Of a DNA stretch of 64,000 nucleotides, positions 22,181-50,708 are shown one piece after another. Under the pieces are notes generated by a model. That model was not told the DNA's origin and ran no database searches. It saw nothing but the letters and a program-made list of their open reading frames with translations. Origin of the DNA: Halichondria panicea (lineage: Eukaryota; Porifera; Demospongiae; Suberitida; Halichondriidae); the NCBI RefSeq assembly GCF_963675165.1, contig NC_087380.1:2595803-2659802 (forward strand), given 5' to 3'. The first letter of the stretch is position 1. Every line of letters begins with the position of its first letter. Made by a program: the position numbers and the translations under genes.

Positions 22181-24342
22181 ATGAGATGCAAACTTTCTAT
22201 AATTTCATGTAATATTTGTAAGTGCATTGTGTATGTGTAGACTGTCAAGTCAGGATTTAGCTAATACAGATGATTTATTCCTATGCAGTGTTGGTGCTCC
22301 AGCAGCTGGTGTCTGGACAGCAGTGTGGTACAGTCGGTCGTGTGGGCAGTACAAGGACTGGTGCAATGGAGAATAGAGCAAGAAACGAGTTCTACATTGA
22401 TCGTGGTAATCGTGCTGGATGTGCTGGGATGATCACCTCACTCTCTTACTGTTTCCATCGACCACCATTGACTGTTCCAGTTGCTAACGAGTACCTGACT
22501 CAGTTGCGGTGTACAGACCAGCGAGCACCAACACAAATGAGAATGTATTTACTGTTGTTTCTTCACCGATCACAATACAAAAACCATTTGTAGAGCTTCT
22601 AACTGAATTAAACGCTGCTACTGATACGAACTTTTCCTGCTCTGTATTTAACCTACCACAACCAGTAGCCATGGAGACTGGTGATGTTCTTGGAGCGTGT
22701 GTGTTTGACCCTGATGATACTACAAGTGGTGTCACTACCTACCGTCTTGACATAGTCAGCAGAGCTGCTTTAGGAAGTGAAGACCTTGTGAGAACAAACA
22801 CAGATCCCAGTAGCCCACCTGCTGGCTGCAGTGCTACTACTGTGCCAGGTTCTTTTGATAGAGGCGCATCTGGTACTGGCTCTAGATCTAGTACTTCAAG
22901 GTCCCTTCACCTCTGGGCAAACATAGGTAAGTTGAACGTTTATTTCAATTACTGTTATTACATTGAACGTATAAGCACATAAACCGTTTGTCATAGAAGT
23001 GGCTACAACTGAAGCACCTACAATGGTAAAAACTACTACTACTATGGAAGTGACTACAATTGGAGCGACTACATCTGAACCGACTGAGGACACCACGACT
23101 ATCATGGAAGTGACTACCATGGAAGCGACTACTATGGAAGCGACTACAATGGAAGTGACTACATCTTCCACAACTACATCTGAACCGACTGAGGACACCA
23201 CCACTCCCGAAGACGTCACAACAGACATGACCACAGCAGGTGGTCCACTGATTACTGATGGGGACTCTACTACTTCCACCACAAACCAAGGGACAACGAG
23301 CAACCCTGATGCCAACACTGCACAACCCATTGGTGGTGAGGGAGGTGGTTCTAACGTAGCAACTGTTGCCATTGCTGTGGTAGTTGCACTCATTATTGTG
23401 ATTGCTTTAGTTGCCATACTAATACTTGTGTTGTTAAGGCGACGATCGAAAGCATTGCACTCAATAAGTAAGTTAATTTTGAAATTGAAAACAATGTTAC
23501 AATTAACTGCATGGATTCTTTGTTGCACACAGAAAACAGTGAAGTACCTGACAAATCTGGGAGGGAAACTGCTGTTGACTTGAAGTCCAACGAAACTTAC
23601 GGTATTCATGGTGAGCCTCGAGACACTCCCACAGACTATGAGAATCCTTTTGGTGAATGCTCGCCTAGTCAGCAATCTGTAGAAGTAGCCATAGATCTGT
23701 GCATGATCTTTACAAATGGATTCACTGTTTGTGAAAGGGTTTAAAAAAAGCATTGTTCACATGTACGTTCATTGCTTAATTGTATACACAAAATTAGCCT
23801 TCATTCTATCGGTTTAAATTCCAACGAGGCTTATGGTGAAACTCGAGACACTCCCACAGACTACTACGATCATGTTCTTAAAGAATTCAAAGTAGAAGAT
23901 GACGCTAATACTAGATAGACTAAGTATGTGCAATTCCTTTGTTATTGCAGGACAACCATCAACAACTCAACAACCCAATGATGTGACATATGAGGAAGTA
24001 CCAGGACCTATACATTACAACGATCCCTGTCAGCCGATACCTTTAGAAAACAATGAAGCTTATGGTGTCCACAAATCTGCACAAATGGCTGAAACATGCT
24101 CACAAGAAGTTGACCTAAAGTCCAACGAGGCGTATGGTGTGAGAGGGGAGGTGCAAGTTGCTGCCATTAATGGGACAACAACTGACGCAGTGTGCTATAG
24201 TGTCATTGACTCACCTGGTCAGCAATATGCAGAGATAGTAAGTGGAATTGAAATTCGGATGGACAGCAATGAAGCATATGGCACATCTGAGAGAGATAGA
24301 GAAACTGAGGAAACACTTGACTATGATTATGCTTTTCTGTAA
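22181..24342 (+). pseudogene. Receptor R1: six-Cys ectodomain, stalk, TM, ITIM-like tail (frameshifted)
   Basis: Exons: 22181-22217 (signal peptide MRCKLSIISC), 22289-22926 (ectodomain), 22997-23467 (short T/M/E stalk, glycine-rich turn and membrane segment TVAIAVVVALIIVIALVAIL), 23533-23610, and 23951-24342. The tail has NETYGIHG, the ITIM-like DVTYEEVPG, NEAYGVHKS, NEAYGVRGE, the ITIM-like AVCYSVIDS, NEAYGTSER and ends DYDYAFL. There is no kinase. Compared with R3-R6, one base is missing near 22499 (after NEYLT), which shifts the ectodomain into another frame and an early stop. All later exons are open, so this is a recent pseudogene or an assembly error. If intact it would be a surface receptor that recruits SH2 proteins through its tyrosines. 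Confidence 0.7.
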
Positions 24343-24429
24343 ACTAAATCATGCACTGCCGCGGAACCAACTATCAATGAATACAAATATGGTTTGATTT
24401 TAAAATATTGTCTGTAATAATCTTTACAT

Positions 24430-24638
24430 GCCGTATACATGTAGCGGGGAATTTTCGTGGGGGTAAAAATTTCGTTTACCTTCAATGAGGAGATTTTTGT
24501 AAGTACAAAGTTCGTTCGACTTCATGGCCTGCACTGAATTCCATGCGTTCCGATAAACTGCGCCTACGTTTTCATGGAGGTCAGCTTTGTCACGAAAATA
24601 ACGAATTTTACGCCATGGAAATTACTCGCTACACGGTA
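24430..24638. mobile_element. Palindromic MITE, copy 3
   Basis: It shares TTTTCGTGGGG, the GCGTTCCGATAAA-type middle and inverted ends (GCCGTATAC / TACACGGTATA) with 2961-3148. It lies just 3' of R1. Confidence 0.6.
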
Positions 24639-24888
24639 TACATTCACTGATTGTGAAAGCATTGCAATTGCATATTATATAATTATATCTGATTTAAATA
24701 AGCAGCATGTACATAAATTCATTGTTTGTATGCAAAGCGTGCAAGAAGCCCTCACTTTATCAGTCATGAAATTGACATTTAATGGAATACTTGCCTGCTC
24801 ACTTATCAAATAATCTTGACATGAAAAATTGTTCTGTAGTAAGGCATGCATGCTTTGTTGTTACAACACTTCATATGGCATTGATTTA

Positions 24889-25325
24889 AACCCTGATGTC
24901 ACTTATGAGGAAGTAACAGGACCTACACACTACAATGATCCCTGCATGCATGCATGTCAGCCGATAATTATCTTTGGGGCTTTCAATGTCCACAAATCTG
25001 GAAATGAAAGAACTATAGAAATGCCGGGTGAAACATACTGGCAAGAAGTTAACTTGAAGTCCAACGAGGCGTATTGTGTGAGAGGAGATCGGAGATGCAA
25101 GTTTGCAGATACGAACAATGACTTAACACCGACATCCAGTGCTCTCTCCTTCCTGGAATTGTAGCAGCTGTGGTGGTGTTTTTATTCCTGAGGCTCGTGG
25201 CAATGGTGATTTTGGTATAGTCAGTGTTTCGTTCTGGTAAGGAGAAGACGTTCCCAGAAGGAGCCTATAACAGAGGCCAATCTTGATGGGAACACTAATA
25301 TTGGAGTCAACAATGGGATGGGTAA
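24889..25325 (+). pseudogene. Relic of receptor tail exon followed by a membrane-segment fragment
   Basis: 24889-25164 reads PDVTYEEVTGPTHYNDPC, later VNLKSNEAYCVRG, then goes out of register and stops. From about 25160, VAAVVVFLFLRLVAMVIL and then RRRSQKEPITEANLDG resemble the membrane and juxtamembrane part of a different receptor. It has no start and no ectodomain. Confidence 0.55.
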
Positions 25326-25554
25326 GGTGTTTGTTTTATTTCTCCATATTATTATACGGGGGTACATTACAAGAAGTGGACCAATTAATTCTGTTGCATG
25401 CATGCATGATATATGTGTGTTTGGACAATTAAAGGCATCGCAATTCTATAGATAAGATTTCAGTCTGAAGTGAATTTAAAGTCATCCACAGTTCATGTGA
25501 ATTCATTGTTTGCATGTATGCACAATAAGAAGCCCAATAAAAGCCCTCATGCAC

Positions 25555-26035
25555 TCTATCGGTCTGAAATCTAACAAGCTATATAGGCTTGTGGTGTTCA
25601 CTGCGAGACTCAAGACACTCCCACAGACTACTACGATAATGTTCTGAAAGAATCAAACGTATATAGAGGAAGGTAATACAGACAGAGGAGCCTCCTTATT
25701 CCAGAATCTGGAGAGTTATGTGGCAGAAAGATGAAACTTTAGGTATGATGTTCACATATTTATACGTACATGTTTTTCATTCTGCCACATTTCTACGCAG
25801 GAATTAATATTTGCCTGCTCACTATCTAAAGCCTGACCCGTGAAGCAATCACGTATTGTTGTTCTGTAAACAGTTGTATGCATGCAATTGCTTTTATGGC
25901 ATTGTTGCTATTGTAGGACAATTCAGTCTATCAGTAATTGAATCATGTGACTTATGAGGAATTACCAGCTGGAACTACTCACACAACGTTCCTTGTCAGC
26001 CGATATCTTGGGAAATGGATTAAAGCAGACAGATA
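25555..26035 (+). pseudogene. Scattered receptor-tail relics
   Basis: 25605-25665 carries the decayed RDTPTDYYDNV segment. 25916-26020 carries GACTTATGAGGAATTACCAG and TTGTCAGCCGATA, the remnant of the VTYEEVPGP...PCQPI exon, with its acceptor-like GTAGGACAA. None of it is open for long. Confidence 0.5.
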
Positions 26036-26050
26036 CAAGTATATAACAAG

Positions 26051-27521
26051 ATGAGATGCAGCTCACTTTCCATAATTTCATGTGCTTGTAAGTGGCTGCT
26101 ATGTTGATAGATTAACTATGTAATTGTAGACTACACTGTAAAAATGAAGTGTGCTCACTACGCTTAGATGAGCAAACTCTTATTAATAGCTAATGCATGT
26201 AGTCTATCCTTATGCACTATGCCAGCATATAGTGTCTGGACAGCAGTGTGGTACAGTCGGTCGTGTGGGCAGTACAAGGCCTGGTGTTAATAGAGCAGAA
26301 AATGAGTTCTTCATTGATCGTGGTAATCGTGCTGGATGTGCTGGGATGATCACCTCACTCTCTTACTGTTTCCATCAACCACCATTGGCACCTACGACAG
26401 GAGCTACTACTATGGAAGCAACTACTGTAACCATGGAATCAACTACAATAGAAGTAACTACACCTTCCACAATTACAACTGAACCAACTGAGGACACCAC
26501 CTCCGTCGAAGACTTCACGACAGACATAACCACAGCAGGTGGTTCACTGATTACTGATGGGGACTCTGCTACAGCAACCACAAACCGAAGGACAACGAGC
26601 AACTCTGATGCCACCACTGCACAACCCATTGGTGGTGGGGGAGGTGGTTCTAATGTAGCAACCATTGCTGTGGTAGTTGTGTTCATTGTTGTGATCATTG
26701 CTTTATAGTCGCCATGCATACTAATACTTGTGTTGTTAAGGAGACGATCGAAAGCATTGCACTCAATAAGTAAGTCAATTTTTTAAATTGAAAACAATGT
26801 TACAATTAACTGCGTGGATTCTTTGTTGTGCACAGACAACAATGAAGTACATGACACATCTGGGAAAGAAACTGCTGTTGACTTGAAGTCCAACGAAGCT
26901 TACGGTATTCATGGTGAGCCTCGAGACACTCCCACAGACTATGACAATGTTTTTGATGAATGCATTGTTGACTCGCCTAGTCAGCAATTCCAAATTTTTT
27001 AGCAACCCAATATAGATGTCTGCCATCTGTAATGCTTTTATTTCTGAAACTCAATTAATTCTTACGTTGTTTGTGTACGCACCAAAACAACCTCGCTCTA
27101 TTAATCTAAAGTCCAATGAGGCTTACGGTGTTCACGGCAAGACTCGAGACACTCCCACAAACTACTACGATATTGTTCTTGACGAATCAAAAGTAGAAGA
27201 TGCAAAGGAGCCTCTTCATGATAATGTCACAGAAGCTTCTCAACAACCCATTGATGTGACTTATGACGAAGTACCAGGACCTATATACACTACAATGATC
27301 CCAGTCAGCCAATACCTTTGGAAAACAAAGAAGCTTACAATGTCCACGTCCACAAATCTGAAACTACAGAAATGTTGGGTGAAACATGCTCGCAACAAGT
27401 TGACTTGAAGTCCAATGAGGCGTATGGTGTGAGAGGGGAGGTGCAAGTTGCTACCATTAATGGGACCACTGATGCAGTGTACTATAGTGTCATTGACTCG
27501 CCTGGTCAGCAATCTGTATAG
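26051..27521 (+). pseudogene. Receptor R2: deleted copy of the kinase-less receptor
   Basis: Signal exon 26051-26087 (MRCSSLSIISC). The ectodomain keeps only its first 65 or so residues (QQCGTVGRVGSTRPG to LSYCFHQPP) and then jumps straight into the stalk (GATTMEATT); the rest of the ectodomain and an intron are deleted. The membrane segment (SNVATIAVVVVFIVVII) is cut by TAG at about 26706. Downstream exons persist: NNEVHDTSGKETAVDLKSNE, RDTPTNYYDIVLDESKVEDA, VTYDEVPGP (followed by a 2-base insertion), then VDLKSNEAYGVRGEV and AVYYSVIDS to the stop at 27521. It preserves a longer tail exon joining the RDTP segment to VTYDEV, useful for reading alternative splicing in the intact copies. Confidence 0.75.
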
Positions 27522-27611
27522 AGACAACCAGTGGAGCTGAAATTCAAAAGGCAGCAAAGAGGAATGCAGAGGCATAATTATTATGGAAACTGTTGATATT
27601 ACTATTCCTTG

Positions 27612-27642
27612 AATCACTGTATACATTGTGTATACAGTGATT
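27612..27642. repeat. Perfect 13-bp hairpin 3' of the R2 tail
   Basis: AATCACTGTATAC, loop ATTGT, then GTATACAGTGATT. The same hairpin follows the tail exon of R4 at 40989-41019. It could be transposon ends or an RNA structure. Confidence 0.8.
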
Positions 27643-29975: not shown

Positions 29976-32900
29976 ATGAGATGCACACTTTCTATAATTT
30001 CATGTATTTGTAAGTGTCAGATTACCATTGTGTATGTGTAGTGTATAGTCTAGTCAGGATTTAGCTATATACCGGAACAAACTCTATATATACAGATGAT
30101 GTATTTCTATGCAGTGTTGGTGCTTCAGCAGCTGGTGTCTGGACAGCAGTGTACAGTCGGTCGTGTGGGCAGTACAAGGACTGGTACAATGAGGAATAGA
30201 GCAGAAAATGAGTTCTACATTGATCGTGGTAATCGTGCTGGATGTGCTGGGATGATCACCTCACTCTCTTACTGTTTCCATCGACCACCAGGAAATGTTC
30301 CAGTTGCTAACGAGTACCTGACTACAGTTGCTGTGTACAGACCAGCGAGTACAAATGCAAATGAGAATGTATTTACTGTTGTTTCTTCACCAATCACAAT
30401 ACACAAGTCAGCTGTAGAGTTTCAAACTGAATTAAACGCTGCTACTGATACAAACTTTGCCTTTGCCTGCTCTGTATTTATCCTACCACAACCAGTACCC
30501 ATGGCGACTGGTGATGTTCTTGGAGCGTGTGTGTTTGACCCTGATGACATTACAAGTGGTGTCACTACCTACCGTCTTGATATAGTCAGTAGAGCTCGTG
30601 GCGGTACTGAAGACCTTGTGAGAACAAACACAGATCCCAGTAGCCCACCTGCTGGCTGCAGTGCCACTACTGTGCCAGGTTCTTTTGATAGAGGTGCACC
30701 TGGTACTGGTAATAGAGGTAGTGCTGACAGATCTCTTCATCTCTCAGCAAACATAGGTAAGTTGAAGCAAATTATTATTATTATTACTGTTATTATACAC
30801 TGAACATGAGGACATAAACCGTATGTTATACAGAAGTGGTTACAACTGAAGCACCTACAATGGGAGCAACTACGATGGAAGCGACTACGATTGAAGTGAC
30901 TACTATGGAACCGACTATCATGGAAACGACTACCATGGAAGCGACTACCATGGAAGCGACTACCATGGAAGCGACCACCATGGAAGCGACTACCATGGAA
31001 GCAACTACGATGGAAGCGACTACCATGGAAGCGACTACCATGGAAGTGACTATCATGGAAGCGACTACCATGGAAGCAACTACAATGGAAGCGACTACAC
31101 CTTCTATAACTACATCTGAACCGACTGCAAACACCATCACTCCTGAAGACGTCACGACAGACGTGACCTCAGCGGGTGGTCCACTGATTACTGATGGAAA
31201 CTCTACTACAGTAACCATAAACCGAGGGATAACGAGCAACCCTGATGCCACCACTGCACAATCCATTGGTGGTGGGGGAGGTGGTTCTAATGTAGCAACT
31301 ATTGCCATTGCTTTGGTAGTTGTACTCATTGTTGTGGTCAGCCTAGCTGCCATCATGGTGATAGTCATCATTCTTGTGTCAAAGAGATTGAAAAAGGTCA
31401 AGAAATCATACGCAATGACCACCAACTCAGGTAAGTGTTAAGCCAGCTTGTAAAAAGAGTACCTGTATTGTTAAGCCCTCAAATATAATGTGTTAGTTTC
31501 AACATCATTATTCTCCAGAAACTTCGATATCTTTAATTCAATTAGAAAACCAGTTGTACTCGGCAGTGGCTGGTGCTAAAAGCTTGGAGAGAGCTAAACG
31601 GGAACAACCACAGCCACAGCAGCAAGGCAGTCAGTGGCCCACACAGTCCCAGGAGCATGTGTATGAGGTGTTCAGTCTTAACCAGTCAATGGAGTCCACC
31701 TACGCTGAAGTTGGGCCCTTTGGTGCACTGGTGAGGGAAAAAAGCTATGCACTTATGTTTTCTGTACATCGTTGTCTTAGGGTACCTCTGTGTGTGTGCT
31801 GAGTTGTGTAAACCACTCAACACAATGTGTACACTGTTGTCATTATTAGCTTGCCCAAGTGTGTGGGGATGCCATTATACAATTGCCCTTACAGGAGAGT
31901 CTAGTGTTGTAGCGCTTCTAATGAATTCCTTTAACTTGATCACATGAATGTATATACCATAATAAGAAGCCAGTTTGTTATGCTATCCACATATACAATT
32001 CATATAGAATGGTTATGAGGTTGTCTATGAGTCTCCACTGGATGCCCCGGCTATCAGCTACCATCAACTGTTTGAAAAGGTACGACTTTCGTGTGTACAT
32101 TGTATGGCTATATTTAATAATGAATATTGAAAAGTACGTGTACTATTTCTGAATACAGAACAAGGAAGAGGACATTTATGTCAGAGAAAATCCGTACGAA
32201 ACACCAGCATCTATAGAGAACGATATCTATGCTCAGTTGCAGACCTGGAGGGTGACACAATTGAACAGAGAAGACATTAAGTAAGTCATTTAAAAATATT
32301 GACTTGAACAGAAGACGTTAAGTAAGTCATTGAAAATATTGACGCCAAAACTACATGCAGGATTGCTGGTCATCTTGGGTCTGGTCAGTTTGGCAGTGTG
32401 GAGCAAGGAGTGTGGAAGAGACAGGGAACTCAACCAGTGGACGTGGCACTCAAGAGTCTCACCAAAACATCAGAGGAGGACAAAGTCAAGTTCCTCCAAG
32501 AAGCCGCCATCATGGCTCAGTTCAGACACCTTAACGTTATCATGCTCCATGGAGTAGTCACCAGTGGAGACCCTGTGAGTGCATGGCAGCTAGCTCAAAT
32601 GGCCTCTGCTAGATAAGTTTGTTTGTCCAACAAATTAGGACACAAGAAACAGAATGCACAGTCATTGGTTACTGCTTGCTTCTTGGCAACATTTGAACTA
32701 TGTATACAATAATGCAATAATGATGCAATTCGTGTGCCTGCAGATGATGCTTGTGGTGGAAATGGCGAAGAAAGGTGATTTACGACAATTTCTCCTATCT
32801 CTTCGACCTGAGTAAGAATTTCTATAGTTAAATATACCACCTCACCCCCACCCCCATGCATAGCCCAGGGCAGTTAATGCCGAGCAACACATTGTCAATG

Positions 32901-33707
32901 TTACTGAAGTTCTCTCAACAAGTTGCTCTTGGGATGCAGTACCTTTCAGCTAAAGGATTTGTGCACAGAGACATGGCTGCTAGGAATGTACTAGTGACAA
33001 CAAATGACATATGCAAGGTGGTTTATCAATTTTTAGCTATAAAAAACACTCAATTTAATTATTTTATACACATAGGTTGCTGATTTCGGAATGTCCCGAG
33101 ATCTTGCTGATGAGAACTACTATGTCTCACAAGGAAGAGACAAGATCCCCGTCAAGTGGACAGCCCCTGAGGCCATTCACTACAAGAAGTACTCGACTGC
33201 CAGTGATGTATGGGCCTACGGGTGTCTGCTCTATGAGATATGGAGTATTGGGCACAAGCCGTTTGAAGGAATATCTAATCAAGAGGTATTATAATTATAC
33301 CGCCTAAATCACAACTTCATTGATGTTTTTTGCACATGTGCAGGCTATTCGACTCATTGATTCTGGTCAGCGTCTTCCTCCACCTCCTGGCTGCCCTAAC
33401 ATGATCTACGAGCTCATGATACTATGTTGGTAAGATGCATTAATTATACAAATTTAGAAATGTGTGCACCATTTGCACCAAACTACACACATTCTAATAC
33501 AAGTCTGTCTTTTCATGCAGGCATCCTGAGAGCTCCCAACGTCTTGTGTTTCGTGATGTCGTGCTCACTCTTGTTGGCAGTGAGAAGATGGTCCTGAGCA
33601 TTCCCGAGGAGGACTCCTCCACTAACCCACTGGCTGGAGTATTGGGAGCTCCACTGGAGGCCGGGGAGAATATGTACTCGAAGCTGCAAAGGAGATATAT
33701 ACATTGA
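29976..33707 (+). CDS. Receptor R3: receptor tyrosine kinase, apparently intact (865 aa)
   Basis: Twelve exons: 29976-30009, 30115-30756, 30834-31430, 31519-31730, 32008-32079, 32159-32280, 32361-32574, 32744-32811, 32864-33017, 33076-33285, 33344-33429, 33521-33707; all phases agree. Signal peptide MRCTLSIISC, then the six-Cys ectodomain (QQCTVGRVGS, GCAGMITSLSYCF, GDVLGACVFDP). The stalk has about 17 TTMEA repeats, then a membrane segment (TIAIALVVVLIVVVSLAAIM) followed by basic KRLKKVKK. Juxtamembrane tyrosines: NQLYSAV, HVYEV, STYAEV (ITIM-like), YEVVYESP, EDIYVRENPYETP, DIYAQL. Kinase: GSGQFGSV, VALKSL, HRDMAARN, DFGMSRD with activation-loop ENYYVSQG, WTAPEA, SDVWAYG. It ends LQRRYIH. 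All catalytic residues are present, so it should be an active membrane tyrosine kinase; the ligand is unknown. Confidence 0.9.
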
Positions 33708-34315: not shown

Positions 34316-34800
34316 TCACTGTTGTGGTACAGTCGATCGTGTAGGCAGTATGCGATGATAGAAATAGGGACAACTGAATGTGCTGGGATGATTACCTCAC
34401 TCTCTTACTGTTTCCATCGACCACCACTATATATAGCCAATTGATTGCTTTTAATGTTTAATGTTGTTAATGAGACAATTATCAACGACTACCATGTGCA
34501 CTCAAAAACCCAATGACGTGAATTACAAGGAAGTATCTATACACACTACAATGATCCTTGTCAGCCGATACCATTGAAAAACAATTTTAATGAAGCTAGC
34601 TTACAGTGTACACAAATCTGGAAATGAAAGAAGTACATGCAGGAGAATCATGCTCACAAGAAGTTGATCTAAAGTCCAACGATGTGTATGGTGTGAAAGG
34701 GGAGGTGAAAAAATCCAGATGAAGCTAATTAATACCGAAGGGGCTCTTTATGATGTCATAGAAACTAAATCAGAAATTCTGAAGAGGGAAAAGATGTGAC
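34316..34800 (+). pseudogene. Relic of a kinase-less receptor downstream of R3
   Basis: 34330-34430 is a decayed ectodomain start (GTACAGTCGATCGTGTAGGC, later GGATGATTACCTCACTCTCT). 34480-34750 holds decayed tail exons (AACCCAATGACGTG, TTGTCAGCCGATACC, AAGTCCAACGATGTGTATGG). It is copied, with R3, at 51290-51780. Confidence 0.65.
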
Positions 34801-34833
34801 AGAATCACACATCAATAAACAGTTTTCTCAAAA

Positions 34834-35335
34834 TTAATGCCTGACCAATTCAAACACAACATCGTCAACTTTGAGGAGAGGACAGTTTTCGCTGATGTGT
34901 AGAGGTGTGTCAGGGTATGAGGGAAACGTTTTCTTCGAAAATGTCATGTAACAGCACTTAGAGGGGTTTAGCTTTATAATGGACCATGGGGTACGGAATC
35001 GAATGCTTTGCTTATAAATCAAAGTAGACAGCACATATTTCTTTACCCTCATCCAATGATTTGAGACAGTGGTGTGTTAATGAGAGTAGTTCAGATGTGA
35101 TGGACTTTTTGGCAGTGAAGCCCCATTGATGAGTGGATAGTGGAGTGTGCTCTGCTAAGTATATAGTCATCGCTTTGAATACATGTCGTTCGAGGACTTT
35201 GCTGACGATTGGGAGAAGTGATATAGGTCTATAATTCGCAGGATTGTCTTTTTTACCTGATTTAGGCACAATCACAACTCTAGTGACCTTCCAGTTCTTT
35301 GGAAACTTTCCTTTAGTTAGTTAGTAATAGAGTTT
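34834..35335 (-). pseudogene. Reverse transcriptase fragment of a non-LTR element
   Basis: The minus-strand frame 35275-35012 reads VPKSGKKDNPANYRPISLLP, VSKVLERHVF and CAVYFDL. One base out of frame it continues SKAFDSVPHGPL, then NPSKCCYMTFSKK. These are RT fingers and palm motifs, but the YADD part is missing. It is internally deleted and dead. The 51800-52290 copy shares the same deletion, so it inserted before the locus was duplicated. Confidence 0.75.
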
Positions 35336-35639
35336 TAAGGCTGGGCGCTATAGCGTTTGCAGTGTGTTTGAAGAGATATTTTCAGCTCCTGCAACCTTCT
35401 TCATATCTAAGGCTCTCAGATACAGTTCAATTTCTTCATTTGAACAAAGTAGCTCATCTGAAGTCTTTTCCAAGACTGGCTATCTCAACAGTTGGTATAT
35501 GTAAGCTCAGCTTAAAATTTGCTTTCCTTTTCGCATTTGAGTGACCAGCTCTGGAGTATAATTGTACTTCAGTGTCAAATGCTTTCACTACAGAGAAAAA
35601 TGCCAATCTTCTTACGGGCATTAACTTTGCTATTGCATC

Positions 35640-36360
35640 ATATTTACTGAGTGGAGTTGTTGGCTGGTGATATGATCAGTGCTTGTATTTATGACCCTCC
35701 TGATAGTGGATTGGATGGACGTAAGTTAGATGTGGTTGGACGAAATGCTGGGCCTGATCTTACGATCTTGCTGACGAAAGCTATACTATGTATTTCAAGG
35801 TGGTGTAATCCCCGTCAAGTGGACAACCCCTTATATAGGCCATTCACTACAATTAAGAAGTACTCGACTATACCAGTGATGTGTGGGCCTACGGGTGTCT
35901 GCTCTATGACGTTTCAATTGCTAAAAAACATTCAGGTAAGTTTCCATAGTGATGTACACGTAGATAATCACTATAATTATACTGATATTCATTAATTTTC
36001 TTAGAAGCTGGTAAAAGACTCTCTCCACCTCCTGGCTGTCTAGATATGTTTTATGAGCTCATGACCTTCAGTAATTGGTATATGCAAGCTTAGCTTTAAA
36101 ATTTGCTTTCCTTTTCGCATTTGAGTGATCAGCCAAAATTATAGATCAGCTCTGGAATATAATTATACTTCAGTGCATGTCAAATGCTTTCACTACAGAG
36201 AGAAATGCCAATCTTCCTACTGGCATTAACATTGCTGTTGATATTCAGGCTGGTCATGTGATGGTGCTTGTACTTATGACCCTCCTGAAGTGGATGGATG
36301 TACAGCACAGTTGGATGTGATTGGACGAAATGCTGGGCCTGATCACTTCAGCGTTTATCT
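35640..36360 (+). pseudogene. Relic of a diverged receptor kinase
   Basis: AGDMISACIYDPPDSGLDGR, then LDVVGRNAGPD, parallels the GDVLGACVFDP...YRLDIVSR part of the R ectodomain. Next come decayed kinase exon 10 (CCCGTCAAGTGGACAAC to TGTGGGCCTACGGGTGTCTG) and exon 11 (AGKRLSPPPGCLDMFYELM). A second ectodomain fragment (AACATTGCTGTTGATATTCA, DVIGRNAGPDHF) ends near 36355. It shows that a related but distinct ectodomain once sat on a kinase here. Confidence 0.6.
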
Positions 36361-39419: not shown

Positions 39420-40965
39420 ATGAGAAGCAGCACACTGTCTATATTATGTTCTTGTAAGTGTCTGCTATGTAGAATAGCTATGTAGATTGCATGGTCTTGA
39501 GCAAACTCTAGCTAGCTAGATCTAGATCTAGTTTATTCCTATGCAGTGTTGGTGCTCCAGCAGCTGGTGTCTGGACAGCAGTGTGGTACAGTCGGTCGTG
39601 TGGGCAGTAATAGGACTGATGATAGGAATAGAGCACGGGATCAGTTCTTCATTGATCGTGGTAATTGTGCTGGATGTGCTGGGATGATCACCTCACTCTC
39701 TTACTGTTTCTACCGACCACCATTGACTGATCCAGTTGCTAACGAATACCTGACTACAGTTGCTGTGTACAGACCAGCAAGTACCAATGCAAATGAGAAT
39801 GTATTTACTGTTGTTTCTTCACCGATCACAATACTAAAGTTCGCAACAGACCTTGAAGAGTTAAACATTGCTTCTGATACCGAAATCGCCTGCTCTGTAT
39901 TTAACCTACCACAACCAGTACCCATGGAGACTGGTGATGTTCTTGGAGCGTGTGTGTTTGACCCTGATGACACTACAAGTGGTGTCATTACCTACCGTCT
40001 TGATATAGTCAGTAGAGCTACTGACGGTACTGAAGACATTGTAAGAAACAACGAGCAACCCTGATGCCACCACTGCACAACCCATTGGTGGTGGGGAAGG
40101 TGGTTCTAACGTAGCAACCAGTGCCATTGCTGTGGTAGTTGTACTCATTGTTGTGATCATTGCTTTAGTCACCATACTAGTGATAGTACTTGTGCTGTTA
40201 AGGAAACGATCGAAAGCATTGCACTCAGTCAACTCCATAGGTAAGTTTATGTTAATTTTGGATAATTATTCACTAATTTGTGAAAGCATTGCAATCGCTT
40301 CTGATGTAACTAAGCATTTACAAGATGTATAATTATTTATTGTTGGTATAATTATATGCACAGCAAGAAACCGTATCACTCTAAAGTCCAACGAGGCTTA
40401 TGGTGTTCATGATGAGACTCAAGACCCTGCCGGTAAAGATATTATAGGTATGAGGTCAACATGTGCACACATTTCATTCCACCACATTGTACGTAAATAT
40501 TATGGGAATACTTGATTGTTTGTTCACTATCATTATATTAAATCCCTGTATGAAGCATTCATCACGTATTGTGCAAAGAGTTGTAGTGCAATTGCTTTTA
40601 AGGCATGTTATTATATTGCAGGACAATTATTAACTTCCACTCAACAACCCAATGATGTGACTTATGAGGAAGTACCAGGACCTACACACTACAATGATCC
40701 CTGTCAGCCGATACCTTTGGAAAACAATGAAGCTTACGCTGTCCACAAATCTGAAACTACAGAAATGTTGCGTGAAACACGCTCGCAACAAGTTGACCTG
40801 AAGTCGAATGAGGCGTATGGAGTGAGAGGGGAGGTGCAAGTTGCTGCCATTAATGGGACCACTGATGCAGTGTGCTATAGTGTCATTAACTCGCCTGGTC
40901 AACAATCTGTAGAGACAACCAGTGGAGCAATGAGGAATGCGGAGGCATATATTGGAAACTGTTGA
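39420..40965 (+). pseudogene. Receptor R4: stalk-deleted copy; may encode a soluble ectodomain
   Basis: Exon 39420-39453 (MRSSTLSILC) joins 39547 onward, an open ectodomain (QQCGTVGRVGSNRTDDRNR to YRLDIVSRATDG). At about 40040-40050 the sequence jumps from EDIVR into the end of the stalk, deleting the Thr repeat and an intron, and the new frame stops at 40064 (NNEQP). The product would be a signal peptide plus about 170 ectodomain residues and no anchor. Downstream exons remain clean: membrane segment to 40240, 40364-40447 (ITLKSNEAYGVHDETQDPAG), and 40622-40965 (VTYEEVPGP, VCYSVINSP, ending YIGNC). It is either a pseudogene or a decoy with an unused tail. Expression would decide. Confidence 0.65.
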
Positions 40966-41089: not shown

Positions 41090-42780
41090 AACAAATTATT
41101 GCTAGATTATAGCTATAGATTTCAGACACAGTCTACTATAGACTGAGGCAACTTTAGTTTTTATGTAAACTGACTAATACAAGTACGATGAGATGAAGCA
41201 CACTGTTTCAATGATATACATTGGGCTTATAAGTGTCTGCTACGTATGTTGATTCTGCAGGAGCTTTTAAGGAACATTTTGAAGTACACCTAGAATACGA
41301 TTATTTTTTTATTATCTAGTTTACTCCTTGGTTGACAGCAGCTCTAAGTGTTCATCTCCAGCATACTCTATATCTACAGTAGCACTCTGATCTAGATTAT
41401 GAAACTTAAAATCACTGCATTGTACCTAATGATTCTTACAGCAAGATGTCCGACTCTGTGGTGTTTATAACAATTATTTACGTATTTATTAACTGCTTTA
41501 CTGCATGTTTCCATGCAGAAAAATGTAGATCTATAATTATATAAGCACTATTTTTAAGCAATTAGTCTTATTCCAGGCCAGGCCTTAAGAGTACTGGAAG
41601 CTGGTAAAAGACTCTCTCCACCTCCTGGCTGTCCGAAGATGCTTTACGAGCTCATGACCTTCAGTCATGAGCGTATGGTGTGAGAGGGGAGGTGCAAGTT
41701 GCTGCCATTAATGGGACCACTGATGCAGTGTGCTATATAGTGTCATTGACTTGGCCTAGTCAGCAATCTGGAGAAGCAACCATGAAAATTGAAATGTATA
41801 CAACAATTAGGGCAAAGTGGCAACAATAGACAAACGGAGGAATGTACTCTTCACTATGATTTTATTAGGCCTATGATAACATTATTTTAGTGGAGTGGTG
41901 CAAGTACATATACAAGTATTGTTGAGCTGCTGCAAACCACCACCATGCACCCCCCATGACATGCAGGTGTAGATTGCACCTCTAAAAATCTAGCTGAATA
42001 GACAAGGTGAATGTGAACAACACAAGTAGACTCTAAAGCAGACTGATCTGCAAGCAATAAGATCTATAAAGTGTCTCAAAAGGGAAATTATGATCTTAAT
42101 ATTAAGGTCGGTATCATTGAGTAGACTGTCTATAGACAGGATTTAGCTATGAACAAACTCTACTAGGACTGGTGATATGGACAATAGAGCAGTAAATGCG
42201 TTCTACATTGATCGTCGTAATCGTGCTCAGCTGGATGTGCTGGGATGATCACCTCACTCTCTTACTGTTACCATTGCATGACTGCTCCAGTTGCTAACGA
42301 GTACCTGACTACAGTTGCCGTGTACAGACCAAAGAGCACCGATGCAAATGAGAATGTATTTACTGTTGTTTCTTCACCGATCACAATACAAAGGTCAGCA
42401 ACAGAGCTTCAAACTTAATTAAACGCTGCTGCTGATACTGATTTTGTCTGCTCTGTATTTAACATACCATTGCCATTGCTGTGGTATAGTTGTTGTACTC
42501 GATTGCTTTAGTTGCCAACTAATACTTGCATGTGTTGTTAAGGCGACGATCGAAAGCATTGCACTCAATAAGTAAGTTTATTTTGAATTGAAAACAATGT
42601 GTTACAATTAACTGCATGGGTTCTTTGTTATGCACAGAAAACAATAAAGTACATGACAAGTCTAAGAAAGAAACTGCTGTTGACTTAAAGTTCAACGAAG
42701 TTTATGGTATTCATGGTGAGCCTCGAGACACTCCCAATGACTATGACAAAAAATGTACAAAAATTAGGGCTATAGGCCCT
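41090..42780 (+). pseudogene. Second mosaic relic: kinase exon, tail, ectodomain and TM pieces
   Basis: 41090-41880 repeats 28280-29150, including the kinase exon 11 remnant (GKRLSPPPGCPKMLYELM) fused to tail sequence. 42140-42480 is a broken ectodomain (GGATGATCACCTCACTCTCT, AGCACCGATGCAAATGAGAA) with an in-frame TAA. 42485-42570 holds membrane-segment remnants. 42616-42760 is tail exon 4 (NNKVHDKSKKETAVDLKFNE). None is functional. Confidence 0.6.
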
Positions 42781-43149
42781 AATAAATTATACTCCGTTTA
42801 ATTAGGTCTAAAGAAAATTGGGCATCAATGTCCATTTTTGGTAAAGATCATTAACATAAAGTTTTGCATAACATGGTAAAATGTCTGAAGGTGATATTAT
42901 GGATCACTTCAAATCAGCAAGATAAAACACTTGTTTTTCAGTTGTGTATACTGTGTTTATGTCTACATCTATAATCATTATCAGGGGATTTTTTATACGC
43001 GAATAGTCCAATGAGTGAAAAATTTATTATCACATTTGAGACAGATAGAGAAAACAAACAGAGGAAAAACTCTTGACATGACTGTAAACTAAATTATAAA
43101 CATTTTAGTGCAAGTGGTGCATGTGGTCATAATTATCCTTCATTGTGAA

Positions 43150-43307
43150 TACACTCTAGACCACCTCCACCCCCTTTTGCATGCATGACAGGAAATGATT
43201 GTTTAGATTGCATTCCACATCTATAAAGAGAGAGATAGGTGAATTTTCGAACAAGTAGACTATAGTAAACTGACTGATCTGCAAATGTTACAAGATAGAT
43301 CTACAAG
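43150..43307 (+). promoter_or_regulatory. Conserved core promoter of R5
   Basis: ACCACCTCCACCCCC, CATGCATGACAGGAAATGAT, TTAGATTGCATTCCAC and TATAAA at 43222-43227, 86 bases before the ATG. It is almost identical to the R6 block, and the shared region extends upstream to about 42770. Confidence 0.6.
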
Positions 43308-45636
43308 ATGAGATGCACACTTTCTATAATTTCATGTATTTGTAAGTGTTAGATTACCATTGTGTATGTGTAGTGTATAGTCTAGTACTAATACCGGAAC
43401 AAACTCTATATATACAGATGATGTATTCCTATGCATGCAGTGTTGGTGCTCCAGCAGCTGGTATCTGGACAGCAGTGTACAGTCGGTCGTGTGGGCAGTA
43501 CAAGGACTGGTACAATGGGGAATAGAGCAGCAAACGAGTTCTACATTGATCGTGGTAATCGTGCTGGATGTGCTGGGATGATCACCTCACTCTCTTACTG
43601 TTTCCATCGACCTCCAGGAAATCTTCCAGCTGCTAACGAGTACTTGACTACAGTTGCTGTGTACAGACCAGCGAGTACCAATGCAAATGAGAATGTTTTT
43701 ACTGCTGTTTCTTCACCTATCACAATACAAAAGCCAGTTGTAGAGTTTCAAACTGAATTAAATACTGCTACTGATACAAACTTTGCCTGCTCTGTATTTA
43801 ATCTACCGCAACCAGTACCCATGGCGACTGGTGATGTTCTTGGGGCATGTGTGTTTGACTCCCCTGACACTACAAGTGGTGTTACTACTTACCGGCTTGA
43901 TATAGTCAGTAGAGCTGCTTCCGATAGTGAAGATCTTGTGAGAACAAACACAGATCCCAGTAGCCCTGTTGGCTGCAGTGCCACTACTGTGCCAAGTTCC
44001 TTTGATGGAGGCGCATCTGGTACTGGTTCTAGCAGTTCAAGGTCCCTTCACCTCTGGGCAAACATAGGTAAGTTGAAGCAATTATTATTTAATTCTGTTA
44101 TTATACACTGAACATGAGGACATGTACCGTATGTTATACAGAAGTGGTTACAACTGAAGCACCTACAATGGGAGCAACTACCATGGAAGCGACTACTATG
44201 GAAGCGACTACCATGGAAGCGACTACCATGGAAGCGACTACTATGGAAACTACTACCATGGAAGCGACTACCATGGAAGCGACTACCATGGAAGTGACTA
44301 CGATGGAAACGACTACCATGGAAGCGACTACCATGGAAGTGACTACGATGGAAGCGACTACCATGGAAGCGACTACCATGGAAGCGACTACCATGGAAAC
44401 GACTACCATGGAAGCGACCATGGAAGCAACTACAATGGAAGCGACTAAACCTTCTACAACTACGCCTGAACAGACTGCAAACACCAACACTCCTGAAGAC
44501 GGCACAACTGACATGACCACAGCGGGTGGTCCACTGATGACTGAGGGAGACTCTACTACTGCAACCACAAACCGAGGAACAACGAGCAACCCTGATGCCA
44601 CCACTGCACAACCCATTGGTGGTGGGGGAGGTGGTTCTAACGTAGCAACCATTGCCATTGCTGTGGTAGTTGTACTCATTGTTGTGATTGCTTTAGTTGC
44701 CATACTAATACTTGTGTTGTTAAGGCGACGATCGAAAGCATTGCACTCAATAAGTAAGTTAATTTTGAAATTGAAAACAATGTTACAATTAACTGCGTGG
44801 ATTCTTTGTTGTGCACAGAAAACAATGAAGTACATGACAAATCTGGGAAAGAAACTGCTGTTGACTTGAAGTCCAATGAAGCTTACGGTATTCATGGTGA
44901 GCCTCGAGACACTCCCACAGACTACTATGACTATTCTTTGGTGAATGCATTGTTGACTCGTCTAGTCAGCAATCTGTAGAAGTATAGCCGTGCACGATCT
45001 TTACAAATGGATTCACTGTTTGTGAAAGGTTTAAGCATTGCATCTGAAGTGAAAAAAGCGTTGTTCACATGACATACGTTCATTGCTTAATTGTTATGCA
45101 TATAAATTCCAACGAGGATTATGATGAGACTCGAGACACTCCCATGCACAGACTACTATACGATAATGTTCTTCGAAGTAGAAGAAGCTAATACTAGATA
45201 GACTAAGTATGTGCAATTCCTTTTAAGGAATGATATTATTATTGCAGGACAATCATCAACAACTCAACAACCCAATGATGTGACTTATGAGGAAGTGCCA
45301 GGACCTATACACTACAACGATCCTTGTCAGCCGATACCTTTGGAAAACATTGAAGCTTACAGAGTACACAAATCTGCACAAATGGCTGAAACATGCTCAC
45401 AAGAAGTTGACCTGAAGTCCAACGAGGCGTATGGTGTGAGAGGAGAGGTGCAAGTTGCTGCCATTAATGGGACCACTGATGCAGTGTACTATAGTGTCAT
45501 TGACTCGCCTGGTCAGCAATCTGGAGAAGCAGCCAGGAGAACTAAAATTCAAATGGACAGCAATGAAGCATATGGAACATCTGAGAGAGATAGACAAACA
45601 GAGGAAACTCTTGACTATGATTACGCTATCCTGTAA
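43308..45636 (+). CDS. Receptor R5: kinase-less paired receptor, apparently intact (579 aa)
   Basis: Exons 43308-43341, 43441-44067, 44142-44753, 44819-44896 and 45248-45636 join in frame. Signal peptide MRCTLSIISCILLVLQQLVS, ectodomain with six Cys (QQC, GCAG, SYCF, FACS, GACVF, GCSAT), a stalk of about 20 TTMEA-type repeats, a GGGGGG turn, and a membrane segment ending ALVAILILVLLRRRSK. The tail has NEAYGIHG, DVTYEEVPG, NIEAYRVHK, NEAYGVRGE, AVYYSVIDS, NEAYGTSER, DYDYAIL. VTYEEV and VYYSVI fit the ITIM consensus. There is no kinase or other enzyme, so signalling would depend on partner kinases and SH2 proteins. The donor after GIHG (CATG/GTGAGC) was chosen because it joins in frame; the following GEPRDTPTDYYD is also conserved and may be used in another isoform. 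Confidence 0.85.
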
Positions 45637-46089: not shown

Positions 46090-46248
46090 ATACACTCTAG
46101 ACCACCTCCACCCCCTTTTGCATGCATGACAGGAAATGATTGTTTAGATTGCATTCCACATCTATAAAGAGAGAGATAGGTGAATTTTCGAACAAGTAGA
46201 TTATAGTAAACTGACTGATCTGCAAGTGTTACAAGATAGATCTACAAG
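46090..46248 (+). promoter_or_regulatory. Conserved core promoter of R6
   Basis: The same ordered motifs as R5: CCACCTCCACCCCC, CAGGAAATGATTG, GCATTCCACATCTATAAA, with TATAAA at 46163-46168, 86 bases before the ATG. The block is essentially a copy of 43150-43307, offset 2941 bases. Confidence 0.6.
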
Positions 46249-49200
46249 ATGAGATGCACACTTTCTATAATTTCATGTATTTGTAAGTGTTAGATTACCA
46301 TTGTGTATGTGTAGTGTATAGTCTAGTACTAATACCGGAACAAACTCTATATATACAGATGATGTATTCCTATGCATGCAGTGTTGGTGCTCCAGCAGCT
46401 GGTATCTGGACAGCAGTGTACAGTCGGTCGTGTGGGCAGTACAAGGACTGGTACAATGGCGAATAGAGCAGTAAACGAGTTCTACATTGATCGTGGTAAT
46501 CGTGCTGGATGTGCTGGGATGATCACCTCACTCTCTTACTGTTTCCATCGACCACCAGGAAATGTTCCAGTCGCTAACGAGTACCTGACTACAGTTGCTG
46601 TGTACAGACCAGCGAGTACCAATGCAAATGAGAATGTTTTTACTGCTGTTTCTTCACCTATCACAATACAAAAGCCAGTTGTAGAGTTTCAAACTGAATT
46701 AAATGCTGCTACTGATACAAACTTTGCCTGCTCTGTATTTAATCTACCGCAACCAGTACCCATGGCGACTGGTGATGTTCTTGGGGCGTGTGTGTTTGAC
46801 TCCCCTGACACTACAAGTGGTGTCACTACTTACCGGCTTGATATAGTCAGTAGAGCTGCTTCCGGTAGTGAAGATCTTGTGAGAACAAACACAGATCCCA
46901 GTAGCCCTGTTGGCTGCAGTGCCACTACTGTGCCAAGTTCCTTTGATGGAGGCGCATCTGGTACTGGTTCTAGCAGTTCAAGGTCCCTTCACCTCTGGGC
47001 AAACATAGGTAAGTTGAAGCAATTATTATTTAATTCTGTTATTATACACTGAACATGAGGACATGTACCGTATGTTATACAGAAGTGGTTACAACTGAAG
47101 CACCTACAATGGGAGCAACTACCATGGAAGCGACTACTATGGAAGCGACCACCATGGAAGCGACTACCATGGAAGCGACTACTATGGAAACTACTACCAT
47201 GGAAGCGACTACCATGGAAGTGACTACGATAGAAGCGACTACCATGGAAGCGACTACCATGGAAGCGACTACCATGGAAGCGACCATGGAAGCAACTACA
47301 ATGGAAGCGACTAAACCTTCTACAACTACGCCTGAACCGACTGCAAACACCAACACTCCTGAAGACGGCACAACTGACATGACCACAGCGGGTGGTCCAC
47401 TGATGACTGAGGGAGACTCTACTACTGCAACCACAAACCGAGGGACAACGAGCAACCTTGATGCCACCACTGCACAATCCATTGGTGGTGGGGGAGGTGG
47501 TTCTAACGTAGCAACCATTGCTATTGCTTTGGTAGTTGTACTCATGGTTGTGGTCAGCCTAGCTGCCGTCATGGTGATAGTCATTATTCTTGTGTCAAAG
47601 AGGCTGAAAAAGGTCAAGAAATCATATGCAATGACCAACAACTCAGTAGGTGAGTGTTAAGCCAGAGGGTACCTGTATTGTTAAGCCCTCAAATATAATG
47701 TGTTATATAGCTTCAATATCATTATTCTCCAGATACTTCGATATCTTTAATGTTACTTTCAATTACAGACAACCAGTTGTACTCGGCAGTGGCTGATGCT
47801 GAAAGCTTAAAGAGAGCTAAATGGGAACAACCACAGCCACAGCAGCAAGGCAGTCAGTGGCCCACACAGTCCCAGGAGCATGTGTATGAGTTTGAGGGGG
47901 CGTTCAGTCCTACCCGGTCAATGGAGTCCACCTATGCTGAAGTTGGGCCCTTTGGTGCACTGGTGAGGGAAAAAAGCTTTGCACTTATGTTTTCTGTACA
48001 TCATTGTCTTAGGGTACCTCTGTGTGTGTGCTGAATTGTGTAAACCACTCAACACAATGTGTACACTGTTTGTCATTATTAGCTTGCCCAAGTGTGTGGG
48101 GATGCCATTATGAATTCTATTACAAATGCCCTTACAAAGGAGTCTAGTGTTGTGGCACTTCTCATGAATCCTTTAACTTGATCACATGAATGTATTATGT
48201 TATAGTTACAACACAGGCACGAAGGATATATGCCATGCATGCATCCTGAGTGCACGTGTTATAACTAGTTTATATCCCGAGGGCATAGCAACATAACACT
48301 GTCTTAGTAATAACCTGCACAAATAGATGACAGAGACAACTCTAGACACAGCTTCATCTCTTCTCTCTTCTAGACGCCAGTATCTGCAGCGTATAAGATT
48401 GGCATGACCGACGAATGGCTTGACATAAAATTGTTGGAGTTCCAACGCTGAAACCAGTACACTGCAAAACAGCCCCACCCCACTTCTGATGCTGCAAAAC
48501 AGCCACCCCACTACTGCTGCAAAGAAACAGCCCTACCCCACTACTCAGTGTAACTGCTGCTCGAACAGCCCTCCACAGTGGTCTATCCTCGGCATCACAA
48601 CCAAGCCAAAGAAGCTCGCCTCTACACTGCTGCAAAACAGCTCAAGCCCCCAGCAAAAAGAGCCGCTTCTAGTGCTATGGTGAAACAGAATTAAAATGCA
48701 TCACAAGGTCGAGGACTAGGTCTAGAAACACAGAATCTTCCACAAAATGAACCTTGGACAATTTAAAAACCTGCATGGTTGCAAAGAAGAAACTCCAGCA
48801 GTGCTTAACATTCCTGCATGGCTGGACTTACTTTGATACTTGTTATTTCTCATGATATTATTGTCTGTCTAATGCCAGAGGGGCGTTTTGTGGTTAGTGC
48901 ATTATGACTTTTCGGTTAGTGCATTATGACTTTAAGCAGTGCATTATGCTGCATATTGCACTTGGCAGCAACGTAGCAATAGGATATAAACTATAATAAG
49001 AAGCCAGTTTGTTATATATGCCATCCACATATACAGAATGGTTATGAGGTTGTCTATGAGTCTCCACTGGATGCCCCGGCTATTAGCTACCATCAACTAT
49101 TGGAAAAGGTACAACTTTTGTGTGTACATTGTATGGCTATATTTAGTTTGAAATGCAAGATTCTTCTAAATACAGAACAAGGAAGAGGACATTTATGTCG

Positions 49201-50708
49201 GAGAAAATCCGTATGAAACACCAGCATCTAGAGAGAACGATATCTATGCTCAGTTGCAGACCTGGAGGGTGACACACTTGAACAGAGAAGACATTAAGTA
49301 AGTCATTAAAAATATTGACTTGAACAGAAGACGTTAAGTAAGTCATTGAAAATATTGATGACAAAACTACATGCAGGATTGCTGGTCACCTTGGGTCTGG
49401 TCAGTTTGGCAGTGTGGAGCAAGGAGTGTGGAAGAGACAGGGAACTCAACCAGTGGACGTGGCACTCAAGAGTCTCACCAAAACATCGGAGGAGGACAAA
49501 GTCAAGTTCCTCCAAGAAGCCGCCATCATGGCTCAGTTCAGACACCCTAACGTTATCATGCTGCATGGAGTAGTCACCAGTGGAGACCCTGTGAGTGTAT
49601 GGTATTAGCTCAAGTGACCTCTGCGGCTAACAAATTGGGACACAAGAAACAGAATGCACAATCATTGGTTACAGCTTGCTTCTTGGCAACATTTGAACTG
49701 TATGTATGCAATAATGCAATAATGATGCAATTCGTGTGCCTGCAGATGATGCTTGTGGTGGAAATGGCGAAGAAAGGTGATTTACGACAATTTCTCCTAT
49801 CTCTTCGACCTGAGTAAGAATTTCTATAGTTAAATATACCACCTCACACACCCCCCCATAGCCCAGGGCAGTTAATGCCGAGCAACACATTGTCAATGTT
49901 ACTGAAGTTCTCTCAACAAGTTGCTCTTGGGATGCAGTACCTCTCAGCTAAAGGATTTGTGCACAGAGACATGGCTGCTAGGAATGTGCTAGTGACAAGA
50001 AATGACATATGCAAGGTGGTTTATCAATTTTTAGCTATAAAAAAACACTCAATTTAATTATTTTTATACACATAGGTTGCTGATTTTGGAATGTCCCGAG
50101 ATCTTGCTGATGAGAACTACTATGTCTCACAAGGAAGAGACAAGATCCCTGTCAAGTGGACAGCCCCTGAGGCCATTCACTACAAGAAGTACTCGACTGC
50201 CAGTGATGTGTGGGCCTACGGGTGTCTGCTCTATGAGATATGGAGTATTGGGCACAAGCCGTTTGAAGGAATATCTAATCAAGAGGTATTATAATTATAC
50301 CGCCTAAATCACAACTTCATTGATGTTCTTTGCACATGTGCAGGCTATTCGACTCATTGATTCTGGTCAGCGTCTTCCTCCACCTCCTGGCTGCCCTAAC
50401 ATGATCTACGAGCTCATGATACTATGTTGGTAAGATGCATTAATTATTACAAATTTAGAAATGTGTGCACCATTTGCACCAAACTACACACATTCTAATA
50501 CAAGTCTGTCTTTTCATGCAGGCATCCCGAGAGCTCCCAACGTCTTGTGTTCCGTGATGTCGTGCTCACTCTTGTTGGCAGTGAGAAGATGGTCCTGAGC
50601 ATTCCCAAGGAGGACTCCTCCACTAACCCACTGGCTGGAGTATTGGGAGCTCCACTGGAGGCCGGAGAGAACATGTACTCTCAGCTGCAAAGGAGATATA
50701 TACATTGA
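46249..50708 (+). CDS. Receptor R6: receptor tyrosine kinase, apparently intact (856 aa)
   Basis: Exons 46249-46282, 46382-47008, 47083-47649, 47733-47962, 49037-49108, 49176-49297, 49377-49590, 49746-49813, 49862-50015, 50076-50285, 50344-50429 and 50522-50708 join in frame. The ectodomain is nearly identical to that of R5, the stalk has about 14 TTMEA repeats, and the membrane segment (VVVLMVVVSLAAVMVIVIIL, then KRLKKVKK) matches R3. Juxtamembrane: NQLYSAV, HVYEFEGAF, STYAEV, YEVVYESP, EDIYVGENPYETP, DIYAQL. Kinase: GSGQFGSV, VALKSL, HRDMAARN, DFGMSRD, ENYYVSQG, WTAPEA. It ends LQRRYIH. It should be an active transmembrane tyrosine kinase. It is mosaic: the 5' half is shared with R5 and the 3' half with R3, with the switch at the membrane segment. 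Intron 4 carries an 0.8-kb insert. Confidence 0.9.
48198..48985. mobile_element. Insertion in intron 4 of R6
   Basis: R3 and R6 introns align on both sides (TTGATCACATGAATGTAT on the left, ATAATAAGAAGCCAGTTTG on the right), but about 790 bases occur only in R6. The ends hold GTTATAGTTAC and ATATAAACTATAAT. There are no coding motifs. The family is not recognised. Confidence 0.55.

Follow-up and report, generated by a model that had tools for sequence, protein, structure and literature searches.

Why should receptors that share one kind of extracellular domain end in a tyrosine kinase in some genes and in a tail without any enzyme in the genes next to them? A 64,000-nucleotide stretch of the sponge Halichondria panicea (contig NC_087380.1, here C4, positions 2,595,803 to 2,659,802; hereafter the window, its internal positions marked w) raises this question, as it carries the receptor genes R1 to R6. 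It lies inside a same-strand receptor array at C4:2,558,861-2,754,022 (+), about 195 kb of the 131-Mb genome. Genes with a tyrosine kinase ending are called K and those with a kinase-less ending bearing NEAYG-type motifs are called N. A reading made from the sequence alone had proposed that these genes are paired receptors, and in structure this is what the array holds: highly similar ectodomains with differing cytoplasmic parts occur within one cluster, both endings are found in two ectodomain subfamilies, and two N/K pairs are near-identical outside up to a sharp switch. We privilege the hypothesis, to which we give about an even chance, of a tandem array of paired receptors with shared six-cysteine outsides, K or N insides, a common ligand, and an output tuned by the N tail.

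The R6 ectodomain used as query gives at least 36 matches in the genome: at least 35 fall in the array, every one of them on the + strand, and one lies outside it, at C4:1,653,196. The array matches correspond to at least 33 ectodomain units, because frameshifts divide each of two genes into two matches; a further unit, the weakly matching 2566696, comes from tblastn. The array DNA was read except for 2,550,001-2,556,000, 2,580,001-2,595,802, and 198 bp at 2,659,803. With a custom spliced protein-to-DNA aligner and R5/R6-like queries, 30 genes could be given an ending, namely 17 K and 13 N. They comprise 2566696 and 29 of the 33 units, the four units left over being fragmentary or badly decayed. 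Subfamily A, whose ectodomains are about 70-100% identical to that of R6, has 8 K and 7 N genes. Groups B1 and B2 are about 30-37% identical to R6: B1 has 2 K and 6 N genes, and the four B2 genes have K endings only, like three further genes outside these groups. The first exon is unmodelled in the B2 genes, 2562644, and 2566696. The array also contains a recent tandem duplication (C4:2,692,103-2,714,528) of a three-gene block made of a B2 kinase, a B1 kinase-less, and an A kinase gene, in which the two B1 kinase-less copies carry a frameshift at the same offset.

The endings do not follow the history of the ectodomains. In ectodomain DNA trees the kinase-less genes do not form one clade, either in subfamily A (14 rows, 5 ending changes, p-AU 6.2e-7; R2 is excluded because little of its ectodomain remains) or in B1 (8 rows, 2 ending changes, p-AU 1.2e-5). 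In Mantel tests, ectodomain distance shows no association with the ending (A, r 0.01, p 0.41; B1, r -0.22, p 0.79), and the closest ectodomain relative of a gene ends in the opposite way in 6 of the 14 A genes and 5 of the 8 B1 genes. The neighbours R5 (N) and R6 (K) are about 98% identical between the 5' flank and the middle of the transmembrane segment; in the 850 bp surrounding their starts the value is 96%. Leaving aside the number of stalk repeats, which differs, their ectodomains and stalks have 55-60 of 60 bases alike in each ungapped window, and blastn gives 93% over 1,529 columns with the stalk-repeat gaps included. This identity covers both signal-peptide exons and the 5' flank, and falls to background at about w44683, inside the transmembrane codons. 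The R6 ectodomain is closest to that of R5 (98.2%, versus 91.8% to R3) and its kinase is closest to that of R3 (98% DNA identity), while the R5 tail has no single nearest partner, being about 90% identical to those of 2750090, 2673368, and R1. The B1 pair 2750090 (N)/2753636 (K) has 56-60 of 60 bases alike per window over about 1 kb, 99% overall; blastn detects no homology between the two upstream of this tract, and downstream they are about 82% identical to the end of the transmembrane exon and then at background. Recombination or gene conversion has thus recently re-homogenised the outsides and proximal 5' flank of N/K neighbours and left their insides different, the sharp-ended tracts of the two pairs being compatible with conversion as well as with unequal crossing-over. 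The switch point lies in the middle of the transmembrane segment in A and after the transmembrane exon in B1; the two fusions of the tail, one to each ectodomain type, were therefore made at distinct sites. From the 5' flank shared by R5 and R6, co-expression of the two genes would be predicted.

The kinase-less tail is a module of its own. NEAYG-type DNA sites (at most one mismatch) number 20 in the window against 0.25 expected. The longer NEAYGV..G pattern has 21 exact matches genome-wide, all on the + strand and inside the array, with none for the backward control, and all 34 genome matches to the tail are likewise within the array. Tails of A and B1 N genes are 81% identical on average (30 pairs) versus 26-33% for their ectodomains (84 pairs, misframed 2734380 excluded). 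Median omega of the tail is 0.42 for A-A, 0.34 for A-B1, and 0.25 for B1-B1 comparisons; the corresponding values are about 0.5 in A ectodomains and 0.18 in A kinases, lesioned copies being included in these estimates and shifted bases skipped. Judged by these values, the N tails are under purifying selection. In the last tail exon 60 of 115 columns are invariant (11 copies), and a common DYDY-type end closes 10 of the 11 N tails that were modelled. This exon is present twice in 2679576 (C4:2,680,987-2,681,842). Database searches, in which the best 7,994-7,996 candidates were scored, extend the module beyond this assembly: tail pieces make up 21 of the 77 related proteins found by profile search (best 7,996 scored), and all 21 retain both central tyrosines, which belong to an NEAYGVRG-type and a VCYSV-type motif, even if several are short or lack other motifs and one, P0068, equals R1.

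Each N tail has 7 to 13 tyrosines with three or four NxxY motifs, mostly NEAY, and usually two tyrosines in a context like that of the immunoreceptor tyrosine-based inhibitory motif (ITIM). The R5 tail has two ITIM-like (shuffle p 0.05) and three NxxY motifs (shuffle p 0.01), and both ITIM-like motifs are found in 9 of 11 N tails. SH2 domains are matched 71 times in the genome, which also has one SH2-SH2-protein tyrosine phosphatase row (C3:8,404,573-8,406,287), a layout that we take to be that of the SHP phosphatases. N and K receptors would bind the same ligand and co-cluster, allowing the kinase of K to phosphorylate the N tail in trans; the phosphorylated tail could then recruit SH2 or PTB proteins, possibly a tandem-SH2 phosphatase, that would tune or oppose the output of K. 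R5 and R6 are a ready-made pair for binding and trans-phosphorylation assays of this scheme.

The relation of the tails to kinase exons is informative on their origin. Decayed kinase sequence lies 341, 314, and 324 bp past the tails of 2734380, 2737978, and 2750090, respectively, all B1 genes. It is composed of several kinase pieces in order with many stops behind 2734380 and 2750090, and of one piece behind 2737978. Because this sequence is decayed, there is no working kinase behind these three N genes for which the tail would be an alternative exon. Kinase pieces occur in 5 of the 12 flanks listed, the other two being the R3-R4 interval and the region after R6; none was found in the scanned flanks of R1, R2, R4, 2673368, 2679576, 2695441, or the kinase gene 2665548, the scan having left out the short gap behind R5. 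In relics after R2 and R4, a kinase exon runs straight into tail sequence (C4:2,624,653-2,624,819 and 2,637,422-2,637,598). Some B1 N genes probably arose when a K gene gained tail exons with a stop and its kinase exons then decayed. RefSeq isoforms X3 and X6 of LOC135335114 match R1, with the tail and no kinase, X6 also being without the transmembrane segment; their listing as isoforms suggests RNA support. These kinase-less products, the own stops of the R5 and R1 tails, and the decayed kinases of the three B1 genes indicate, as far as sequence tells, that the tails are not just alternative exons of kinase genes, the outcome that the sequence-only reading had named as speaking against it.

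Several observations weigh against a functional pairing. Tandem duplicates can exchange sequence even when no selection favours a shared ligand. Tyrosine columns of the last tail exon (7 of 9 invariant, mean 0.93) are hardly more conserved than all columns (0.91). Nothing marks N as the inhibitory partner since R6 carries two ITIM-like motifs in its juxtamembrane region (shuffle p 0.04), as many as the R5 tail. No frameshift or in-frame stop is present in 13 of 17 K versus 5 of 13 N models. Two of these five N models are otherwise faulty, 2737978 having no ATG and 2574092 no clear tail end, which leaves R5, 2679576, and 2750090 as fault-free N genes (3 of 13), a count that has no exact K counterpart because K-gene starts were not all checked alike. 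As so few are fault-free, many N copies may be dead or decaying. R1, 2695441, 2705630, and 2722362 have a single frameshift each, and the lesions flagged in 2698254 and 2665548 resemble unspliced introns or artefacts at exon edges. An AATAAA or ATTAAA signal within 400 bp past the gene end is found in 2 of 11 N and 8 of 14 K genes.

Faults of this kind, which reach 10 of the 13 N genes when lesions, incomplete tails, and missing starts are counted, together with the kinase relics behind three of them and the many fragments, are what turnover of the array would leave if unequal crossing-over made chimeras and N genes were K genes becoming pseudogenes, with no pairing function. We hold this to be quite unlikely: the tail exons are mostly open and evolve under purifying selection, in contrast to the many stops in the kinase sequence that follows them; one tail is found on two ectodomain types with distinct switch points; and its pieces recur in other assemblies. 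The array could also be one regulated compound locus, in which read-through and alternative splicing let one ectodomain take either ending. A RefSeq product, P0005 (kinase isoform X2), is of this form, as it joins the front of 2665548 (97% ectodomain identity) to a kinase back identical to the 2683069 model across the kinase-less genes 2673368 and 2679576. This chimera may be either real read-through splicing or an artefact of mapping reads between paralogues. R5 has its own start exon, stop, and AATAAA and is separated from R6 by about 600 bp, and the kinase sequence behind three B1 N genes is dead, making such a locus very improbable.

N receptors could be ligand sinks (decoys) or blockers that capture the ligand of K, or hetero-dimerise with the K receptor, and lower its output simply by lacking a kinase, the tail being of minor importance; ectodomains common to N and K fit this role, and the R1 isoform X6, lacking the transmembrane segment, would be soluble. 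The tail is conserved beyond what a decoy needs, in its omega of 0.25-0.42, its 60 invariant columns, and its core kept in the 21 database pieces, and we regard the decoy explanation as unlikely. Alternatively, N receptors could be positive co-receptors, non-catalytic docking arms that amplify K signalling via adaptors in an ErbB3-like division of labour. The wealth of tyrosines and NxxY motifs per tail and the 71 SH2 matches favour this role, to which we give a minor, though not negligible, probability; no adaptor was identified, and the motifs also fit an inhibitory function. Paired receptors tuned by the N tail remain our preferred hypothesis.

Five cysteines of the ectodomain are invariant and the sixth is nearly so (19 rows), and AlphaFold2 predicts a beta-rich domain (pLDDT 76, pTM 0.79, 19 sequences). 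Domain and structure comparisons gave no Pfam match and no confident family or fold match, and so point to no ligand class. Among the 76 database relatives with an alignment of at least 100 amino acids, 60 are less than 90% identical to every fetched array copy (42 of the 55 pieces that include ectodomain or stalk, and 18 of the 21 tails), and part of these may come from other species. This diversity of the ectodomain and stalk pieces in other assemblies makes the array a concrete candidate locus for sponge recognition. It is possible, although we advance it only tentatively, that shared variable ectodomains on paired K and N receptors allow activating signals to be balanced against restraining ones, in self/non-self recognition or towards microbes, independently of immunoglobulin receptors.

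Gene models of the window are given in Table 1. The signal peptide is split between exon 1 and the beginning of exon 2, which also carries the ectodomain; exon 3 codes for the stalk and transmembrane segment. R3 and R6, previously read as ending in complete tyrosine kinases, do so in full spliced models without lesion; like other K genes they have a signal peptide, one transmembrane segment, and a tyrosine kinase with its catalytic residues, as expected of receptor tyrosine kinases. The K translations contain GSGQFG, VALK, HRDMAARN, DFG, and APEA; the names we give to the kinase motifs of R3 and R6 are presumptive, and signal peptides and transmembrane segments were assigned by eye. Pfam PK_Tyr_Ser-Thr matches one R3 exon (E 3.7e-16) that is paralogous to R6, and EGFR and Eph kinases are the best PDB sequence matches of the R6 kinase (best 60 of 916). 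Past the transmembrane segment, R6 has a tyrosine-rich juxtamembrane region followed by the kinase with all catalytic motifs. The segment itself, AIALVVVLMVVVSLAAVMVIVIIL, is uncharged, so that R6 lacks the charged segment coupled to an adaptor with an immunoreceptor tyrosine-based activation motif (ITAM) of an activating partner and carries its own kinase. In R5 a split signal peptide, six-cysteine ectodomain, and threonine-rich stalk precede a single transmembrane segment and a kinase-less tail that ends in a stop of its own; AATAAA follows 81 bp past the last codon. The sequence-only reading had also placed R1, R2, and R4 with R5 as kinase-less NEAYG receptors starting with the same six-cysteine ectodomain. 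Only R5 is intact among these four: the R1 ectodomain is frameshifted at about w22500 (a 1-bp loss by eye), little of that of R2 survives, and R4 is truncated without the sixth cysteine, its last tail exon being open with a different end. A common ectodomain on all four is not confirmed.

Table 1. Receptor genes, relics, and shared tract in the window (positions within the window; TM, transmembrane segment).
Feature	Position	Strand	Exons and composition	Basis
R1, kinase-less, subfamily A	22181..24342	+	22181-22217, 22289-22926, 22997-23467, 23533-23610, 23951-24342	spliced alignment
R2, kinase-less pseudogene	26051..27521	+	ectodomain mostly deleted, stop in TM, tail frameshift	
R3, intact receptor tyrosine kinase, subfamily A	29976..33707	+	12 exons, ectodomain 30144-30755	spliced model
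Relics	34331..36081	+	ectodomain and tail fragments, then decayed kinase sequence	
R4, kinase-less, disrupted	39420..40965	+	ectodomain truncated, out of frame with TM	
Degenerate kinase-less fragment	42159..42747	+	ectodomain, TM, first tail exon	
R5 part of the tract shared with R6 (R6 part, w45703 to about w47550)	42769..44683	+	5' flank to mid-TM codons	
R5, intact kinase-less receptor, 579 aa	43308..45636	+	5 exons: 43308-43341, 43441-44067 (ectodomain 43470-44066), 44142-44753 (stalk and TM), 44819-44896 and 45248-45636 (tail)	translation without internal stop
R6, intact receptor tyrosine kinase, 844 aa	46249..50708	+	12 exons: 46249-46282, 46382-47008 (ectodomain 46411-47007), 47083-47649, 47769-47962, 49037-49108, 49176-49297, 49377-49590, 49746-49813, 49862-50015, 50076-50285, 50344-50429, 50522-50708	no internal stop
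Relics	51316..53056	+	kinase-less gene fragment 51316-51676, then decayed kinase fragments 52815-53056	

Between the first A gene and the receptors of the window are tyrosine-phosphatase exons (C4:2,583,145-2,605,514, - strand, including about w7838-9712). Further dense phosphatase arrays lie on C4 near 0.33-0.77, 1.27-1.38, and 2.09-2.33 Mb, kinase and phosphatase arrays thus standing side by side. Just before R1, w17192-21673 is a long short-repeat stretch with several open frames (TVT.. and NTCHHC.. readings). R6 is followed by an open reading frame (ORF) of the long interspersed nuclear element type with endonuclease and reverse transcriptase (w53511-56717), and then, at w57022-59258, by an ORF with a weak helix-turn-helix match and an integrase-core (rva_4) ORF.

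Receptors with the ectodomain of a kinase family and no (active) kinase are known in ErbB3 and FGFRL1, which are single genes and not a repeatedly re-homogenised array. Our literature searches retrieved no report of kinase/kinase-less arrays with exchanged ectodomains. In sponges, the H. panicea immune transcriptome reportedly has many kinase-bearing cytokine-like receptors and a possible Porifera-specific receptor superfamily (PMC8242945), and the Geodia cydonium receptor tyrosine kinase is an earlier example (referenced in PMC12018476). These are also receptor kinases, and the available portions of the accounts describe no kinase-less partner, array, or exchange. A holozoan tyrosine-kinome study covers ectodomain shuffling and, in the text available, showed no kinase-less partners (PMC8662651).

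Vertebrate immune loci are known to hold paired receptors whose ectodomains are concerted, and a tunicate and a hydroid offer partial parallels. The Hydractinia Alr complex has 41 genes with ITIM/ITAM tails and immunoglobulin-superfamily ectodomains (PMC12065747, PMC11999971); it resembles the sponge array as a clustered receptor family with tyrosine-motif tails in a non-bilaterian host, and appears to differ in its ectodomains; the accessible parts of those accounts mention no receptor kinases. The Botryllus fuhc FF/FcoR genes are clustered in pairs and have ITIM, hemITAM, and core tyrosine tail motifs (PMC12065747). As described there, they likewise form an invertebrate, clustered, and paired family numbering in the tens with tyrosine-motif tails; their ectodomains are of immunoglobulin and sushi type, an apparent difference from the array, a pair consists of two related but different proteins, and the term "tyrosine kinase" is absent from the text of that paper as available. 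A parallel in the concerted pattern itself, from what its account covers, is primate CD300A/CD300C, in which gene conversion keeps the ectodomains alike, cytoplasmic outputs differ, and one partner is often pseudogenised (PMC12447643). Near-identical outsides, differing insides, concerted ectodomains, and frequent loss of one partner are common to both systems. CD300A/C have immunoglobulin domains and oppose an ITIM to a charged transmembrane segment with adaptor, whereas the sponge array has a six-cysteine ectodomain with no Pfam match, a common ligand that is putative, and a kinase as counterpart to a tyrosine tail. A receptor-tyrosine-kinase-based version with a kinase-less tyrosine-tail arm would be a new variation on paired receptors, and the same genetic logic in a sponge would show that it needs neither immunoglobulin domains nor ITAM adaptors.

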